From: Desulfurococcus mucosus DSM 2162
GTDB lineage: Archaea; Thermoproteota; Thermoprotei_A; Sulfolobales; Desulfurococcaceae
DNA: 64,000 bases
Direction of reading: 5' to 3'
Assembly: GCF_000186365.1 (NCBI RefSeq)
Contig: NC_014961.1
Span: 682,001-746,000, forward strand
A program made the translations under genes and the position numbers. The stretch's first letter is position 1, and the number at the start of each line of letters is the position of its first letter. The notes beneath the pieces are model-generated. The model was given only the letters and a program-made list of their open reading frames with translations, did no database searches and was not told the origin of the DNA. Below are positions 15,793-21,972 of this stretch, in pieces.

Positions 15793-17025
15793 TCAGCCCA
15801 CGGCGTTCCTGGTTATCCTGTCGAGTAGTTTCTCCACCTCTCTTTTCACGGCAAGCGGTATGCCGGGCACCTCGATGCTCATGAAGCCCCTTACAAGCAC
15901 CGATTTCGCCTCGTCCTCTGTGAACCCTTTGCTCATAAGGTACTGTATCTCTTTCTCAGCTATCATGCCTATGGCTGCTTCATGGCTTAGGAGGGCACCC
16001 GGTTTCCTCGATGTGATAACCGGTATTGATGACACCATGGCTTTCCCCGATAACAATAGTCCAAGGCACTCTATGTGGCCGCGTGTCTCTGCATCATACG
16101 CGTCGATACTGCTCCTAGCGTAGACTTCAGCATGGTCGCTTGCCACTACACGGGACACCACCTCCGCTGAACTACCTTTACCGGCTAGCACGGCTGCTGA
16201 CCCCTGATCATATATGCCTCGCCCGCTACCAGCCACTATTGATGCTAGGTAGGCTTTTCCACCTGCTGAGAGCTCTGTTCTCGGATATGTTTGCAGGCTT
16301 GCGACAGGGCTGTAGATTATGTAGTAGCTAACGTATTCAGCCCCTTCCTCAACCCTCACAGCTGTCCTAGGCCTCACGTGCATTCCATCCGCCCATGCAT
16401 GCATCATTGTGAAGGTTAGCCTTGCATTCCGTGACACATAGAACTCTGAGACACCTATGTGCACTCCTTCCCTGACGCCGTGGGGCACCGCGCAACCAGT
16501 CACCACGTGTGCCTCGGCACCCTCATCAACGAACACTATGTTATGCGCATACTGTATCCTGCGGTCACCTGTTATAGCGAGGCAGGTATATATTGGAACC
16601 GGAACCCTGACGCCCCTCGGTACATAGATGAAGTATCCGAGCTCGCCGCCTCGAAGATACGTGGATGCCGTGTACTTATCGGTAGCTGGATCCACAAGCC
16701 TCCATGCAAGGCTCCTCCCAACGTCAGTCTTCTCCAATGCGAGCCTTGTAGGCATTATCTTAACACCGTACTTACCCAGCACCCTCTCCATTAACCTGTA
16801 GAGGGCTGTCTCATCGAGCTGAATATATGAAGCTGCCTCAACATTCATGCCGAATCTCTCGCCGGCACCCCTGGCCTCAGCCGGAATCCCGCTTTCGCCG
16901 CTAACCTCACCCACGCTGACCGGTTCAGCTGTATAAGCATCTAAATCTACATCGGGTCCGAACGGGGCGGGCTTAAGCAATGCCTCCCTCACTCTACTAG
17001 TGTTACGCTCACCCAATCCCACCAC
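15793..17025 (-). CDS. sufB: SufB/SufD-family Fe-S cluster assembly scaffold
   Basis: A 410-residue member of the SufB/SufD family. The beta-helix core contains IYVPRGVRVPVPIYTCLAI, NIVFVDEGAEAHVVTGCAVP, and the late DAYDAETRGHIECLGLLLSGKA and ALLSHEAAIGMIAEKEIQYLMSKG blocks. It scaffolds Fe-S clusters with the SufC ATPase, whose gene lies upstream with a 17-base overlap. Only one SufB/D-type gene is present, as in the minimal archaeal SufBC arrangement. Confidence 0.88.
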   Translation of the reverse strand: MVGLGERNTSRVREALLKPAPFGPDVDLDAYTAEPVSVGEVSGESGIPAEARGAGERFGMNVEAASYIQLDETALYRLMERVLGKYGVKIMPTRLALEKTDVGRSLAWRLVDPATDKYTASTYLRGGELGYFIYVPRGVRVPVPIYTCLAITGDRRIQYAHNIVFVDEGAEAHVVTGCAVPHGVREGVHIGVSEFYVSRNARLTFTMMHAWADGMHVRPRTAVRVEEGAEYVSYYIIYSPVASLQTYPRTELSAGGKAYLASIVAGSGRGIYDQGSAAVLAGKGSSAEVVSRVVASDHAEVYARSSIDAYDAETRGHIECLGLLLSGKAMVSSIPVITSRKPGALLSHEAAIGMIAEKEIQYLMSKGFTEDEAKSVLVRGFMSIEVPGIPLAVKREVEKLLDRITRNAVG

Positions 17026-17740
17026 CCCTAAGAGCCTCTACTCCCCTCCTGTAGCCCAGCTTGAATACCACTGGAAGCACCTCGTCAGGGGAGCCGCTGT
17101 GAACAATCCTCCCCTCCATCAGGATGTGGACCCGGTCTATCCTGCTCAATTTATTCGTTATTAGACCCGTATGTGTCACCAGTATCACTGAGCTACCCTT
17201 ACGCGTCAACAGGTCTATCACGTGCGCTATGCTGTCAGCGCTCTCGATGTCGACACCGCTATCTGGTTCATCAAGCATGGCTAGCTTCGGCGACTGCAAG
17301 AGTGAAAGGAAGAGTTCAGCCCTCTTCTTCTCGCCACCACTGAACCCGAGGAAGAGATCCCTCTCGAGTAAGGGATCTACCCTGAGGAGTTTCGAAAACA
17401 TAGCTGAGTCCTCGCACCTATACTTCTCCAACATGAATCTAGCTACATCCCTCAGCTTAACGCCCTTCACCTCTGGAGGATTCTGATGGGCCAGGGCTAT
17501 CCCAAGCCTCGCCCTCTCATAGGGGGGTAAATCAGTGATGTCGCGTCCTCCAAAGTATATTTTCCCGGAAACCACCTTCAAGTATGGTAAGCCCATTATT
17601 GATGCTAGGAGCGTTGATTTACCGCTGCCATTGGGACCCATTACTACGTGCAACTCCCCATGTTGAACAGTAAGGGATACATCCCTGAGCACCAACCTAT
17701 CCCCTACAGTAACAGAGAGACCTCTGATCTCTAGGCTCAT
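17009..17740 (-). CDS. sufC: SufC ATPase of Fe-S cluster assembly
   Basis: A 243-residue ABC-type ATPase. It has Walker A MGPNGSGKSTLLASI, the Q-loop AHQNPPEVKG, the SufC-type signature FLGFSGGEKKRAELFLSLL and Walker B KLAMLDEPDSGVDIES. The phrase LDEPDSGVD is typical of SufC rather than transporters. It overlaps the SufB/D-like gene, and the two form a two-gene operon. Confidence 0.93.
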   Translation of the reverse strand: MSLEIRGLSVTVGDRLVLRDVSLTVQHGELHVVMGPNGSGKSTLLASIMGLPYLKVVSGKIYFGGRDITDLPPYERARLGIALAHQNPPEVKGVKLRDVARFMLEKYRCEDSAMFSKLLRVDPLLERDLFLGFSGGEKKRAELFLSLLQSPKLAMLDEPDSGVDIESADSIAHVIDLLTRKGSSVILVTHTGLITNKLSRIDRVHILMEGRIVHSGSPDEVLPVVFKLGYRRGVEALRGGGIG

Positions 17741-17829
17741 CTCAAACCCCTATATCAGGAAAGGATCCACCATGAATATAAGTTGAAGCCCTTCCAGGTT
17801 TAATAGCGGTTTGAAGAACCGCTTACGCC
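17741..17829. other. Intergenic spacer before the proC island
   Basis: Eighty-nine bases upstream of sufC. They contain a small inverted repeat (GCGGTTTGAAGAACCGC at 17806-17822) and otherwise no gene. The sufC promoter must lie here on the minus strand. Confidence 0.4.
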
Positions 17830-18099
17830 TTACAACCGAAAGCCTCGTCTTTCAAGGCGGGGATGAAGGTTTATAGGCTTGTTTTTATATATGGGTAATG
17901 GTGATGAGGAGAGGTATTTAGCGGTGAGGGGGCTGCAACCCTTCGTGAACGAGGGGTTGTTCCCGAGCAGAGATAACCAGATGGGGGATCTCTGACCACC
18001 CCGACTGCCCCGCAGATGACAGATGTAAACCCGAACAAATGCGGGGAACCCGTGAACCGCCCTAAGGGAAACCCCCTTTTAGGGCGGAGAGGAGGTCAG
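17830..18099 (+). mobile_element. Element A: nonautonomous IS605-like element with RNA-like body
   Basis: A 270-bp unit. The left end TTACAACCGAAAGC leads into a hairpin (CCTCGTCTT/AAGGCGGGG, 17842-17861). A TATA-like TTTTTATATA lies at 17882-17891. The body is rich in stems, and the right-end hairpin pairs CGCCCTAA with TTAGGGCG around GGGAAACCCCC, closing with GGAGGTCAG at 18091-18099. Its last 93 bases align with element B in inverted orientation. The architecture matches a tnpB-less IS200/IS605 derivative whose right end encodes an omegaRNA-like transcript. No transposase or TnpB is encoded. The call rests on remembered element features. Confidence 0.55.
18007..18099 (+). ncRNA. Candidate omegaRNA-like structured RNA, copy A
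   Basis: The stretch starts GCCCCGCAGATGAC, continues TGTAAACCCG, ATGCGGGGAA and GTGAAC, and ends in an 8-bp perfect stem (CGCCCTAA/TTAGGGCG) followed by GAGGAGGTCAG. The copy at 18996-19089 (minus) keeps the same blocks, with differences that preserve stems. In TnpB systems the guide follows the right-end motif directly. Here that would be the bases from 18100 onwards, beginning AAAGGCATTGC. Whether it is transcribed, or served by a TnpB elsewhere in the genome, is unknown. Confidence 0.45.
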
Positions 18100-18116
18100 A
18101 AAGGCATTGCTTCAAG

Positions 18117-18158
18117 CTGACATCCTCCCGCCCTGAAAGGCGATGCTCTCGGTTGTAA
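18117..18158 (-). repeat. Hairpin repeat copy D, abutting proC
   Basis: A 42-bp minimal unit on the minus strand: TTACAACCGAGAGC, hairpin ATCGCC TTTCA GGGCGGG, then AGGATGTCAG. Its left end lies two bases from the proC stop codon (18161-18163). Its right end faces the right end of element A across a 17-base gap (18100-18116). Confidence 0.6.
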
Positions 18159-18160
18159 TC

Positions 18161-18976
18161 CTATAAACCCAGCTCTCTTCTAACATTATCATCTATTTCC
18201 CTACCGATCTCCATAGACCTCTTGTATGATGCTTCAATAGTTTTCATTAATGCTGCTTTAACGCCTTCAGACTCCATGGTGATCAAACCCCTTATGGTCG
18301 TGCCTGCAGGTGTAGTGACCTCATCTCTCAATATAGCTGGGTGGATATCGTTATTCCTAAGGAATCTCGCAGTGCCTTCTAATACATCTAATACAGCATC
18401 ACAAGCTAGGTCTCTTGGCAAGCCTACTAGAACACCACTCATTACTAACGCGTCAACTATTTCAGCAATAAAAGCGGGTCCACTGCCAGCTAGAGCTGTC
18501 CAAGCATCTAATAATTCTTCGGGAACCCAGTAAACCCTACCCATACACTTCAATAGCTTTTCAACTAGCCCTTTACTATCATACTCTTGGTCAACCGCTA
18601 CAGCTGTAGATGACAAGCCTACAAGAGCATTCATATTCGGCATGGCCCTGTATACATGGCTATTGCCTACAATTAGCTTAATAGTATTGATCCTTACACC
18701 GGCCATAAAGGATACGATTATTTTACCAACCCAGCTACTTCTATTGACCTGCTTAGCTAGTGCTGGGAAGTGGTATGGTTTAACAGTTACGAAGATGACA
18801 TCGCTAGATTTAACGGCTAGATCATTGTCTCTAGTTACATGTGCACCCAGAGACTTAGCGTTACTTAAAGTCTCATCTCTCCTACCAGTAGCTACAATAT
18901 CACTATAACCACAAGATATAAGCGACTTTACAACAGCGGTGCCAATCCTACCAGAACCAAGTACAGCTATTCTCAT
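18161..18976 (-). CDS. proC: Pyrroline-5-carboxylate reductase
   Basis: A 271-residue P5C reductase that makes proline from 1-pyrroline-5-carboxylate with NAD(P)H. It has the N-terminal Rossmann motif LGSGRIGTAVVKSL, the family signature AGSGPAFIAEIVDAL and the conserved TTPAGTTIRGL. Length is normal and no frameshift is seen. The DNA is visibly AT-richer than its neighbours: 37% and 35% GC in two 60-base lines counted by hand, against 50% in a comparable sufB line. It is bracketed by mobile-element ends, 2 bases beyond its stop and 19 bases before its start. No other proline gene is nearby. This suggests horizontal acquisition as element cargo. Confidence 0.92.
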   Translation of the reverse strand: MRIAVLGSGRIGTAVVKSLISCGYSDIVATGRRDETLSNAKSLGAHVTRDNDLAVKSSDVIFVTVKPYHFPALAKQVNRSSWVGKIIVSFMAGVRINTIKLIVGNSHVYRAMPNMNALVGLSSTAVAVDQEYDSKGLVEKLLKCMGRVYWVPEELLDAWTALAGSGPAFIAEIVDALVMSGVLVGLPRDLACDAVLDVLEGTARFLRNNDIHPAILRDEVTTPAGTTIRGLITMESEGVKAALMKTIEASYKRSMEIGREIDDNVRRELGL

Positions 18977-18995
18977 AGAGACACCATGCGATACT

Positions 18996-19089
18996 CTGAC
19001 CTCACTCCCAGCCCTAAAAAGGTTTCCCCGTTTAGGGGTTCACTGATTCCCCTGCATCTCCCCGGGTTTACACCCGTCATCTACGGGGC
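18996..19089 (-). ncRNA. Candidate omegaRNA-like structured RNA, copy B
   Basis: It begins GCCCCGTAGATGAC, continues TGTAAACCCGG, ATGCAGGGGAA and GTGAAC, and ends GAGTGAGGTCAG. It aligns block by block with copy A (18007-18099) at almost the same length (94 versus 93 bases). The bases that would act as guide (18995 downwards, AGTATCGCATGG...) run into the proC start region. Expression is not known. Confidence 0.45.
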
Positions 19090-19206
19090 GGGGATGCCCC
19101 GTGGGCTCAGGGCTAACCCTGAATGCAACACTCAGGGGTTAGGAGCCCCTCACGCCACACCTAAACCCTTCAACCCCGCCTTAAGAGACAGAGCTTTCAG
19201 CTGTAA
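18996..19206 (-). mobile_element. Element B: inverted IS605-like element upstream of proC
   Basis: A 211-bp unit on the minus strand. The left end TTACAGCTGAAAGC (19206-19193) is followed by a hairpin region, then a stem-rich body, and it finishes with CCCTAA/TTTAGGG pairing around a GGGAAACC loop and GAGGTCAG ending at 18996. Its right half is homologous to element A but lies in the opposite orientation. It ends 19 bases before the proC start codon, and any transcript through it would run into proC. Confidence 0.55.
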
Positions 19207-19234
19207 CCATAGGCTTTAATGATACATCGCAACT

Positions 19235-19277
19235 TAACAGGGAAACCCTCACCCTTCCAGGGCGGGGAGGAGGTCAG
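19235..19277 (+). repeat. Hairpin repeat copy E (right-end-like)
   Basis: CTTAACAGGGAAACCCTCACCC, loop, GGGCGGGGAGGAGGTCAG. The GGGAAACCC block and GAGGAGGTCAG terminus match the right ends of elements A and B. It lies between element B and the convergent end of the Lhr helicase gene and closes the proC island on that side. Confidence 0.55.
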
Positions 19278-19305
19278 GTGAAACAAGCATCCAGTGGGCA
19301 GGCAA

Positions 19306-21972
19306 CTATGCTTGCTCAGAGAGCTGGCTTCCCTCACCGAGCCTCTGTTTGACGAGTTCATGCAGTCTTGCAAGTAGCTTCCTCATGTCCTCCATCAAGA
19401 CTACATCGCTATAGCCATGTACGACTATGCTGTGTGCAAATGGGCTCGGTACATCAACGGGACCCATTAAAGCCACCTTTATCTCGCCGCTCCTCACCTT
19501 TTCGAGTACTTCCACCGCCTCATCTATGTGCATGTAGTCCATTAGTATCTCCCTATAGGTCTCCTTTAGAACTGGGAACCCAGGTATTTCCTCAACAGCC
19601 TTCAATAACTCTTCAGCGTTGACCTGGAGCTTGTTGATGCTTTTCTCAGTATCCCTATACCTCCTTAGCAACATGAAGCTTCTGACAGCCGTGTGCCTGA
19701 ATCTCCTCTTAAGTAGATCAGTCCTCCTCACTACTTTCTCAAGTATCTCCCATGCCTTCTCCACCGGTATGGTTCTAAACCATTCAAGCCACTCCCCACG
19801 GGGATGGCCGGGCACCGTGAGCATAAACCCGTTGTCCGTCACGGTTAGCTTAACGTTTACTCCGAGTCTCTGCCCCACTATGTAGGCGTAAAGCCTTGCT
19901 AACGCATCGTTGGCTTTACGGCCGAAGATCGAGTGAACTATTATGTTCCTCCTAGTCGGCTCATCATATATTTCTATTAGTATCAGCTCGTCTGATGGCA
20001 CGAGGCCCTTTGCATAGAGCTTCTGCTCCATGATGTAGTCGCATATTGTTTCAGCCGCATGCCTCTGCAACCTGTATTCTTTAACAAGGTACTCCACTGT
20101 GCGCTCCCTCCCCTTCTCATCAAGCATCTCGGATATGAGCCTCCTGAAACGCCCAACCTCCCTCGCTGAATCGTATGCTAGCGGAAGCATTTCACTGAAC
20201 CATGAGGGGACCGTTGGCCTCTGTCCATCCGCCTGCCTCACTATCACCTTGAAGCCCTTGCTTTGCAGGTACTCGTAAACCCTGCCTCCTAACACGAAGA
20301 GATCGCCTGGTGCAAGGTACTCGACGAAGGCTTCTTCGAGATCTCCGACGTAACGGTTGTCAACCGTGAAGACGTGTGCCTTGCTCTCGTCTGGTATCAC
20401 GCCTATGTTCTGATAGTATATCATCCTAGTCGTCTTCTTCCTCCCGAATACTCCCTCATTCTCGTCAAGCCATATCTTAGAGTACACTTTCTGATACTCG
20501 TAGAAGTCGCCTAGCTGCCCAGCTAGGTATCTGAGCACTGAGAGGAAGTCGCTGTAGCTTAACTCATGGAAAGTATATGTCCTCCTAACCAACCTATAGG
20601 CGTCCTCTATCCTCCACTTCTTCTCCAGTGCAAGCCCCACGATATGCTGTGCGAGAACATCGAGAGGGTTACGCGGTATCCTTATCCTATCGATCTTCCT
20701 CTGGAGGGCGAGCTTGGCGAGCACTGTGCACTCGAGGAGGTCATCGCGGTCGACCACTATGACTCTCCCCTTGCTTGTCTCCCTGATATGGTGTCCAGCC
20801 CTCCCTACTCTCTGGAGAAGCCTTGTAACACTCTTAGGGGAGCTCAGCAATACAACTACATCTATGTACCCTATGTCTATTCCAAGCTCAAGCGATGTAG
20901 AGCTAACTATGGCTCTCAGCTCGCCGTTCTTCAACTTGTTCTCTATTTCTATCCTTACATCCCTACTCAGGCTACTGTGATGCGCCTCTATGTCATCTAT
21001 GTCGATCACGCCCTCCTTCTCGAAGATCTTCCTGAGCTTGAAGACTACTCTCTCGGTGGAACTCCTGGTGTTCGTGAATATGAGTGTTGTACGATGCCTC
21101 TTGATTATCCTTCTAAGCTCATCGTATATTGCTTCATTGATCTCCTCGGCAGATGAATATATGAGGTCTTTAACCGGGGAGACAACCCTTATATCCATTT
21201 TCTTATCGAACCTAGCGTCAACTATTTTACAATCCCTGGGCGAGCCATCGTCATTGTAGCCTACCAGGAAGAGGGCTACATCCTCTAATGGCGCTATAGT
21301 AGCGCTTAACCCGATTCTCTGCAACCGTCTCCCAGCGAGGTGTTCAAGCCTCTCAACGCTCACGGCCAAGTGGCTTCCCCTCTTGCTTGATGCAAGCTCG
21401 TGAACCTCGTCGACAATGAGTATCCTGGCATTAGCCAACCTCTCCCTGAACCTCGGAGCATTCAAAGCTATAGCCAGGCTCTCCGGCGTCGTTATAAGGA
21501 TGTGCGGGGGATCCCTGTTCATACGCTGCTTCTCGCTCGGAGTGCTGTCACTGGTTCTTACAGCTACCTTTATCCTTGGAAGCTCCAGCCCCATGCTCCT
21601 CGCTTCTTCAACTATGCCTTCAACCGGCTCCAGGAGGTTCTTCCTCATATCGTTGTTGAGCGCCCTGAGGGGGCTTACATAAACCACGTAGACGCCGTCC
21701 GGCATCCTCCCTGTTTCCTCGTATTGTCTATAAATGTCGTCTATTATCCCCAGGAAGACTGCCAGGGTCTTCCCGGTTCCCGTTGGGCTTGAGACAAGCA
21801 CGTTGCAACCCTGCTTGACAAGAGGTATTGTCCTTCTCTGGACTGGTGTTAGCCCTCCGTACTTCTTTACGAACCATTCCCTCACGTATGGTCTGAGACC
21901 TCCTAGAACCTCTTCATCCGTGAAGTCCTCTAGCGCTGTAACTATAGGCGTTGCCCCCACCCACTGAGACAC
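19306..21972 (-). CDS. Lhr-family superfamily 2 DNA helicase
   Basis: An 888-residue ATP-dependent helicase of the Lhr-core type. Seen: Q-motif LTPVQRRTIP, Walker A SSPTGTGKTLAVFLG, Walker B IVDEVHELASSKRG, motif III LSATIAPLE, motif V STSLELGIDIGYID and motif VI QRVGRAGHH. The long C-terminal winged-helix and Lhr-core parts (HSIFGRKANDALARLYAY) are present. Archaeal Lhr proteins are linked to DNA repair and to unwinding of RNA:DNA hybrids. The length is that expected for a complete protein. Confidence 0.93.
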   Translation of the reverse strand: MSQWVGATPIVTALEDFTDEEVLGGLRPYVREWFVKKYGGLTPVQRRTIPLVKQGCNVLVSSPTGTGKTLAVFLGIIDDIYRQYEETGRMPDGVYVVYVSPLRALNNDMRKNLLEPVEGIVEEARSMGLELPRIKVAVRTSDSTPSEKQRMNRDPPHILITTPESLAIALNAPRFRERLANARILIVDEVHELASSKRGSHLAVSVERLEHLAGRRLQRIGLSATIAPLEDVALFLVGYNDDGSPRDCKIVDARFDKKMDIRVVSPVKDLIYSSAEEINEAIYDELRRIIKRHRTTLIFTNTRSSTERVVFKLRKIFEKEGVIDIDDIEAHHSSLSRDVRIEIENKLKNGELRAIVSSTSLELGIDIGYIDVVVLLSSPKSVTRLLQRVGRAGHHIRETSKGRVIVVDRDDLLECTVLAKLALQRKIDRIRIPRNPLDVLAQHIVGLALEKKWRIEDAYRLVRRTYTFHELSYSDFLSVLRYLAGQLGDFYEYQKVYSKIWLDENEGVFGRKKTTRMIYYQNIGVIPDESKAHVFTVDNRYVGDLEEAFVEYLAPGDLFVLGGRVYEYLQSKGFKVIVRQADGQRPTVPSWFSEMLPLAYDSAREVGRFRRLISEMLDEKGRERTVEYLVKEYRLQRHAAETICDYIMEQKLYAKGLVPSDELILIEIYDEPTRRNIIVHSIFGRKANDALARLYAYIVGQRLGVNVKLTVTDNGFMLTVPGHPRGEWLEWFRTIPVEKAWEILEKVVRRTDLLKRRFRHTAVRSFMLLRRYRDTEKSINKLQVNAEELLKAVEEIPGFPVLKETYREILMDYMHIDEAVEVLEKVRSGEIKVALMGPVDVPSPFAHSIVVHGYSDVVLMEDMRKLLARLHELVKQRLGEGSQLSEQA

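Follow-up and report, generated by a model that had tools for sequence, protein, structure and literature searches.

The genome of Desulfurococcus mucosus is a single contig of 1,314,639 bp, of which bases 682001-746000 formed the window, the stretch of 64,000 nt that was analysed. Coordinates below are those of the window unless they are called genome positions. Two native neighbours frame the locus: sufC on the left (17009..17740, minus strand), which has counterparts of 80% and 76% identity at the same place in two congeners, and on the right a gene for an lhr-type ATP-dependent helicase (lhr, 19306..21972, minus strand; 84% and 80% identity in the congeners). Between them lies a block (17830-19277) composed, from left to right, of element A (plus strand), 17 nt, element D (minus), 2 nt, proC (minus), 19 nt, element B (minus), 28 nt and element E (plus). 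The gene proC (18161..18976) encodes an intact pyrroline-5-carboxylate reductase of 271 aa, differs in composition from its surroundings, and its product passes the cut-off of the NCBIfam proC equivalog (TIGR00112: 248 vs 197 bits). The description of an intact gene wrapped by IS605-like elements, given in the first-pass annotation, was thus confirmed for A, D, B and E.

Element A (17830..18099) is a 270-bp non-autonomous element of the IS200/IS605 type, with TTAC on its left, TCAG on its right and a complete right-end region that resembles an RNA scaffold. A 17-nt spacer (18100..18116) lies between A and D, whose right ends face each other; it gave no significant element match after junction tests. 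Owing to this arrangement the same 17 nt would be the guide for the right-end RNAs of A and D alike, as reverse complements. Element D (18117..18158) is a minimal form of 42 nt in which left and right ends are fused; similar minimal copies were found at genome positions 1179939, 1314308, 1219204 and 1116025. Its left end (TTAC side, at 18158) lies 2 nt past the proC stop codon. The right end of element B (18996..19206; TCAG at 18996) faces proC across a 19-nt spacer (18977..18995) that precedes the start codon; both distances are those first reported. B, which is 211 bp long and likewise non-autonomous, belongs to a second subfamily and is 93% identical to genome positions 612158-612368. A 28-nt AT-rich spacer (19207..19234) leads to element E (19235..19277), a right end of 43 nt without a left end.

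The block holds seven recognisable element ends (two of A, two fused ones of D, two of B and one of E) instead of the four counted originally. Of its 1,448 nt, 66 belong neither to proC nor to an element. Host DNA adjoins the block on both sides: intergenic DNA upstream of sufC (17741..17829), which is partly conserved in the congeners, near sufC only, and the stretch from the block to the stop codon of lhr (19278..19305). Immediately to the left of element A, in the upstream region of sufC, positions 17805-17825 (AGCGGTTTGAAGAACCGCT) form a near-perfect hairpin.

The element family

A and B are homologues in inverted orientation, as had been noted (right ends 79% identical over 99 nt, left ends 79% over 48 nt), and represent two different subfamilies. 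The A-type 270-bp family comprises six full copies with 91-100% identity and one split by the contig ends; this seventh A-type element runs from genome position 1314583 to 220, across the break at which the circular sequence record starts and ends. The last 91 positions of the right end of A have 44 copies in D. mucosus, 24 in the congener G001 and 11 in genome G026, whereas the second congener, G002, has zero copies of the element scaffold. Four right-end copies were found in the window, against a mean of 0.13 in shuffled sequences (18-mer, 3 mismatches). Bare right ends like E occur elsewhere in the genome, and so do nested or side-by-side copies (genome positions 763256-763440, 1163096-1163444 and 132170-132337). 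In the first of these a minimal element lies in reverse orientation within a longer one, which provides a precedent for nested insertion.

In the sampled part of the genome TTAC was present at 20 of 26 left ends and TCAG at 29 of 32 right ends, and the 32 downstream flanks were all distinct. These ends and flanks, together with those of the six full copies, indicate a fixed short target and insertion without target duplication. The TTAC/TCAG pattern is that of IS608-like elements in the IS200/IS605 family, whose insertion leaves no target duplication. The right-end stem of A is strong (z -3.9 vs shuffles). The left end of A has an 8-bp stem not above shuffles, and the stems of B, D and E fold no better than shuffles; we rated the family as having near-terminal palindromes, though the right-end stem of A is the only one that exceeds shuffles.

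A search of the whole genome for the Y1 (HUH) transposase TnpA gave no match to PF01797, while control genomes were positive. There are six intact TnpB genes, and the right-end 120 nt or so of A share 89-97% identity with the corresponding ends of four of them. The genome also contains an IS607-type element (genome positions 1097589-1099284), in which a MerR-resolvase serine recombinase lies beside an intact tnpB; the right end of this tnpB remained unmatched in the search for A-type elements. The elements are multicopy, too short for a transposase and homogeneous at their ends, which are akin to those of IS605/IS1341-type elements of the same genome. Because they share their ends with tnpB genes and the genome lacks a Y1 transposase, we assign them to the palindrome-associated transposable elements (PATEs). 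The family is new in itself, but it belongs to a known class of non-autonomous, IS200/IS605-derived elements: the term transposase-less was correct, and elements of this sort are already described (PMC3119063).

The PATEs of Haloquadratum walsbyi are short and transposase-less, have near-terminal palindromes and IS605/IS1341-type (TnpB) relatives, and form families of >90% identity; they include terminal-only versions of 52 bp, make no target duplication and are mobile despite IS200-type transposases that are rare, absent or broken (PMC3119063). The D. mucosus elements resemble them in being short, transposase-less and homogeneous within families, in their near-terminal palindromes and kinship with TnpB elements, in inserting without target duplication, and in having terminal-only copies (42 bp here). 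They differ in their host, a hyperthermophile of the Desulfurococcales, in the complete tnpB-type right-end scaffold kept by A-type copies, and in bracketing a foreign metabolic gene. With IS608/IS605 they have in common the TTAC left target, a TCA-type right cleavage site, subterminal hairpins and strand polarity, but the elements are non-coding and Y1 TnpA is missing from the genome. The likeness to IS1341-type (tnpB only) elements lies in the right end, which four intact D. mucosus tnpB genes bear; A, B, D and E, in contrast, have no tnpB.

The scaffold region is conserved in sequence and may encode a putative omega-RNA. A homing unit could be imagined in which right-end RNA from one of the outer elements directs TnpB to cleave sufC-lhr alleles that lack the insertion, so that proC spreads. 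The intact TnpB genes, the kinship of four of them with the right end of A, and the guide position of E (19278-19297), which is host DNA beside lhr, would suit such a scheme. We consider it very improbable: only E would have a guide that is host DNA present in the empty allele, and of E just 43 nt are left, without the RNA scaffold; A, B and D have their guides inside the block; and no Rfam family matched in 17000-20000.

Origin of proC

The GC content of proC is 42.5%, compared with 52.1±2.0% for 55 ORFs of the window, and its GC3 is 34.6%, compared with 60.6±4.7%; among these ORFs it ranks lowest in both. Its AT-richness, previously noticed in single lines of sequence, thus holds for the whole gene. 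In sampled stretches covering 509 kb (39% of the genome) the GC3 of proC is the second-lowest of 459 ORFs. The published G+C content of the type strain O7/1T is 53.1% (PMC3111991). Another AT-rich group of ORFs (38-45% GC; genome positions 404899-413895) is probably a foreign island, in which no PATE ends were detected.

In both available congeners, G001 and G002, sufC and lhr are direct neighbours: the ORFs are 35 and 42 nt apart, compared with 1,565 nt in D. mucosus. The flanking gene order is conserved, with at least nine genes common with G001 and about 13 with G002 in the stretches compared. proC is missing from both congener genomes, and the surroundings of lhr showed no element ends. 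The first-pass annotation had held that conserved sufC-proC-lhr synteny, with proC of native composition, would mark the gene as ancestral; this arrangement was looked for and not found, and the empty site that it had proposed as a check was present in both congeners. The comparison supports a lineage-specific insertion. At the outer ends of the block the intergenic DNA of the congeners is too diverged for a base-exact junction; the host DNA beside the block (89 + 28 nt) somewhat exceeds the congener gaps, so that the edges may contain additional non-element DNA, at most about 80 nt.

In the ProC tree D. mucosus ProC groups with that of Thermogladius (support 100/99), and ProC of genus g7 is placed elsewhere. 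The Lhr tree conflicts with this position: there Desulfurococcus groups with genera g7 and g6 (100/99), and the Thermogladius-like genus g9 lies outside. ProC of a g9 genome (G033) and ProC of the Thermogladius metagenome-assembled genome (MAG) share 98% identity. D. mucosus has a single proC. Since the gene is foreign in composition, its tree conflicts with that of Lhr, and both gene and repeats are absent at the site in the congeners, proC was probably gained by horizontal transfer.

The alternative, that proC was ancestral to the genus at the sufC-lhr junction and was lost together with the elements in both congener lineages, could draw on the patchy distribution of the gene (16 of 41 genomes of the family and order), which makes losses common. 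We regard it as improbable. It requires two losses, each of which restored close sufC-lhr spacing, it leaves the composition and the tree conflict to be accounted for, and none of the proC homologues examined in the order has a sufC-lhr-type neighbourhood.

Thermogladius was considered as direct donor and rejected: its proC has 63% GC, so the donor was probably AT-richer and belonged to a lineage outside the sampled genomes. Thermogladius proC also lies near suf genes, but order and orientation differ and SufC and SufB are about 39-45% identical; we treated this as coincidence. No proC relative was found in viral contigs, and plasmids gave distant bacterial homologues only (at most 36% among the matches listed). 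In a search of named contigs for proC relatives the Thermogladius MAG alone matched.

No proA was found in the D. mucosus genome. As a consequence, ProC is an orphan enzyme here and works without the standard glutamate route; its substrate may be pyrroline-5-carboxylate that is derived from ornithine or scavenged. This raises the question why the acquired gene was kept.

Entry of proC and a possible role of the elements

proC of D. mucosus is an acquired, lineage-specific gene inside a PATE cluster. As to how it came there, we infer that the element ends most likely mediated its entry. On this reading proC passed to the D. mucosus lineage from another, unsampled archaeon by way of element ends, and would have entered the empty sufC-lhr junction bounded by PATEs. 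Two routes can be envisaged. In the first, one compound unit would be delimited by outer ends lying on the same strand, a left one (TTAC side) and a right one (TCAG): either A-left and E-right on the plus strand or B-left and D-right on the other. A Y1 transposase acting in trans, later lost, would have moved this unit. In the second, incoming element-proC-element DNA would have recombined with an element copy resident in the sufC-lhr gap. We infer both the order of insertion and its mode (compound-unit movement or inter-element recombination). Element B might in addition serve proC as a promoter.

Besides the empty junction, the foreign composition and the tree conflict, the layout of the block argues for entry through the elements. 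The acquired DNA amounts essentially to a bare gene, because proC lies 2 and 19 nt from element ends and so little other DNA is present. The outer ends follow each other, left then right, on each strand, with the polarity that IS200/IS605 units need, and the ends of the family are consistent. Among strongly foreign genes proC is the only one found beside elements, and it is also the most tightly bracketed. As in compound transposons, proC lies between related elements whose outer ends are polarity-compatible on each strand; unlike them, the putative unit has no transposase and no second copy.

Within the 509 kb sampled, element ends flank three ORFs at distances of up to 300 nt on each side: proC, a subtilase gene (genome positions 1106436-1107683) and a gene for an HTH protein (846813-847190). 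The subtilase has an orthologue in the congeners, which in G002 has the same RuBisCO-like neighbour, and the HTH protein has close homologues or orthologues there. We rejected both as further cargo, given these homologues and the conserved place of the subtilase gene. The search for other cargo genes, suggested earlier, thus yielded two candidates with congener homologues and no second proC unit. Because both other bracketed genes have congener orthologues, bracketing alone is not proof of cargo.

These two genes argue against element-mediated entry, as do several other observations. With 44 copies, 1.6 neighbouring pairs less than 1.1 kb apart are expected at random. E has no left end and its folding does not exceed that of shuffled sequences, and the AT-rich ORFs at 404-414 kb are without detected element ends. 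G029 and G020 carry both proC and elements, but no element ends lie within 1.5 kb of proC; the same distance was free of ends in the relatives examined. The original proposal that proC moved with, or was captured by, an element therefore stood in part: the gene is lineage-specific and foreign, but carriage was not shown, given the missing Y1 transposase, the lack of a second unit and the weak hairpin of E. When D-proC-B was removed on the minus strand, which joins 18116 to 19203, an older element appeared to be restored (p 0.0025 vs letter shuffles); against random genomic joins p was 0.085, and this candidate was dropped. Taken as a whole, we give the explanation by transfer through element ends somewhat less than an even chance. 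Its more specific form, a compound PATE unit in which transposase-less IS200/IS605-type ends captured a foreign proC and delivered it into an archaeal chromosome, is put forward tentatively.

Alternatively, proC may first have been acquired by other means (natural transformation, a virus or plasmid, illegitimate recombination), and PATEs may later have inserted into and around this new AT-rich DNA, which was under weak constraint, and shortened its flanks. The abundance of the elements, their nested and side-by-side copies elsewhere and the congener orthologues of the other bracketed genes agree with this, and the different subfamilies of A and B, together with the fragment E, suggest separate arrivals. 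PATEs and their relatives in Haloquadratum often insert into other mobile elements (PMC3119063). Against such accumulation stand the three to four insertions that it needs in two short gaps around one gene, the near-complete loss of donor DNA outside proC (66 nt in all), and the fact that the sole strongly foreign element-adjacent gene found is also the most tightly bracketed. Its probability, too, falls a little short of even; we judge element-mediated entry and later accumulation about equally likely, the former at most slightly favoured.

Transposase-less IS200/IS605-type repeats are plentiful in some archaea and mostly regarded as junk. A foreign proC pared almost to its coding sequence between element ends, where relatives have an empty site, would offer a concrete case bearing on gene movement driven by repeats. 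If the compound-unit reading is true, gene transfer would have been driven by ends for which this genome has no transposase. A gene-carrying role of these elements is possible; the idea is testable but unproven.

The native subtilase gene has PATEs on either side (genome positions 1106246-1107888). A related remnant (77% over 61 nt) lies at a similar place near the subtilase gene in G001 (L183, 3087-3142), so some element insertions may predate the species split.
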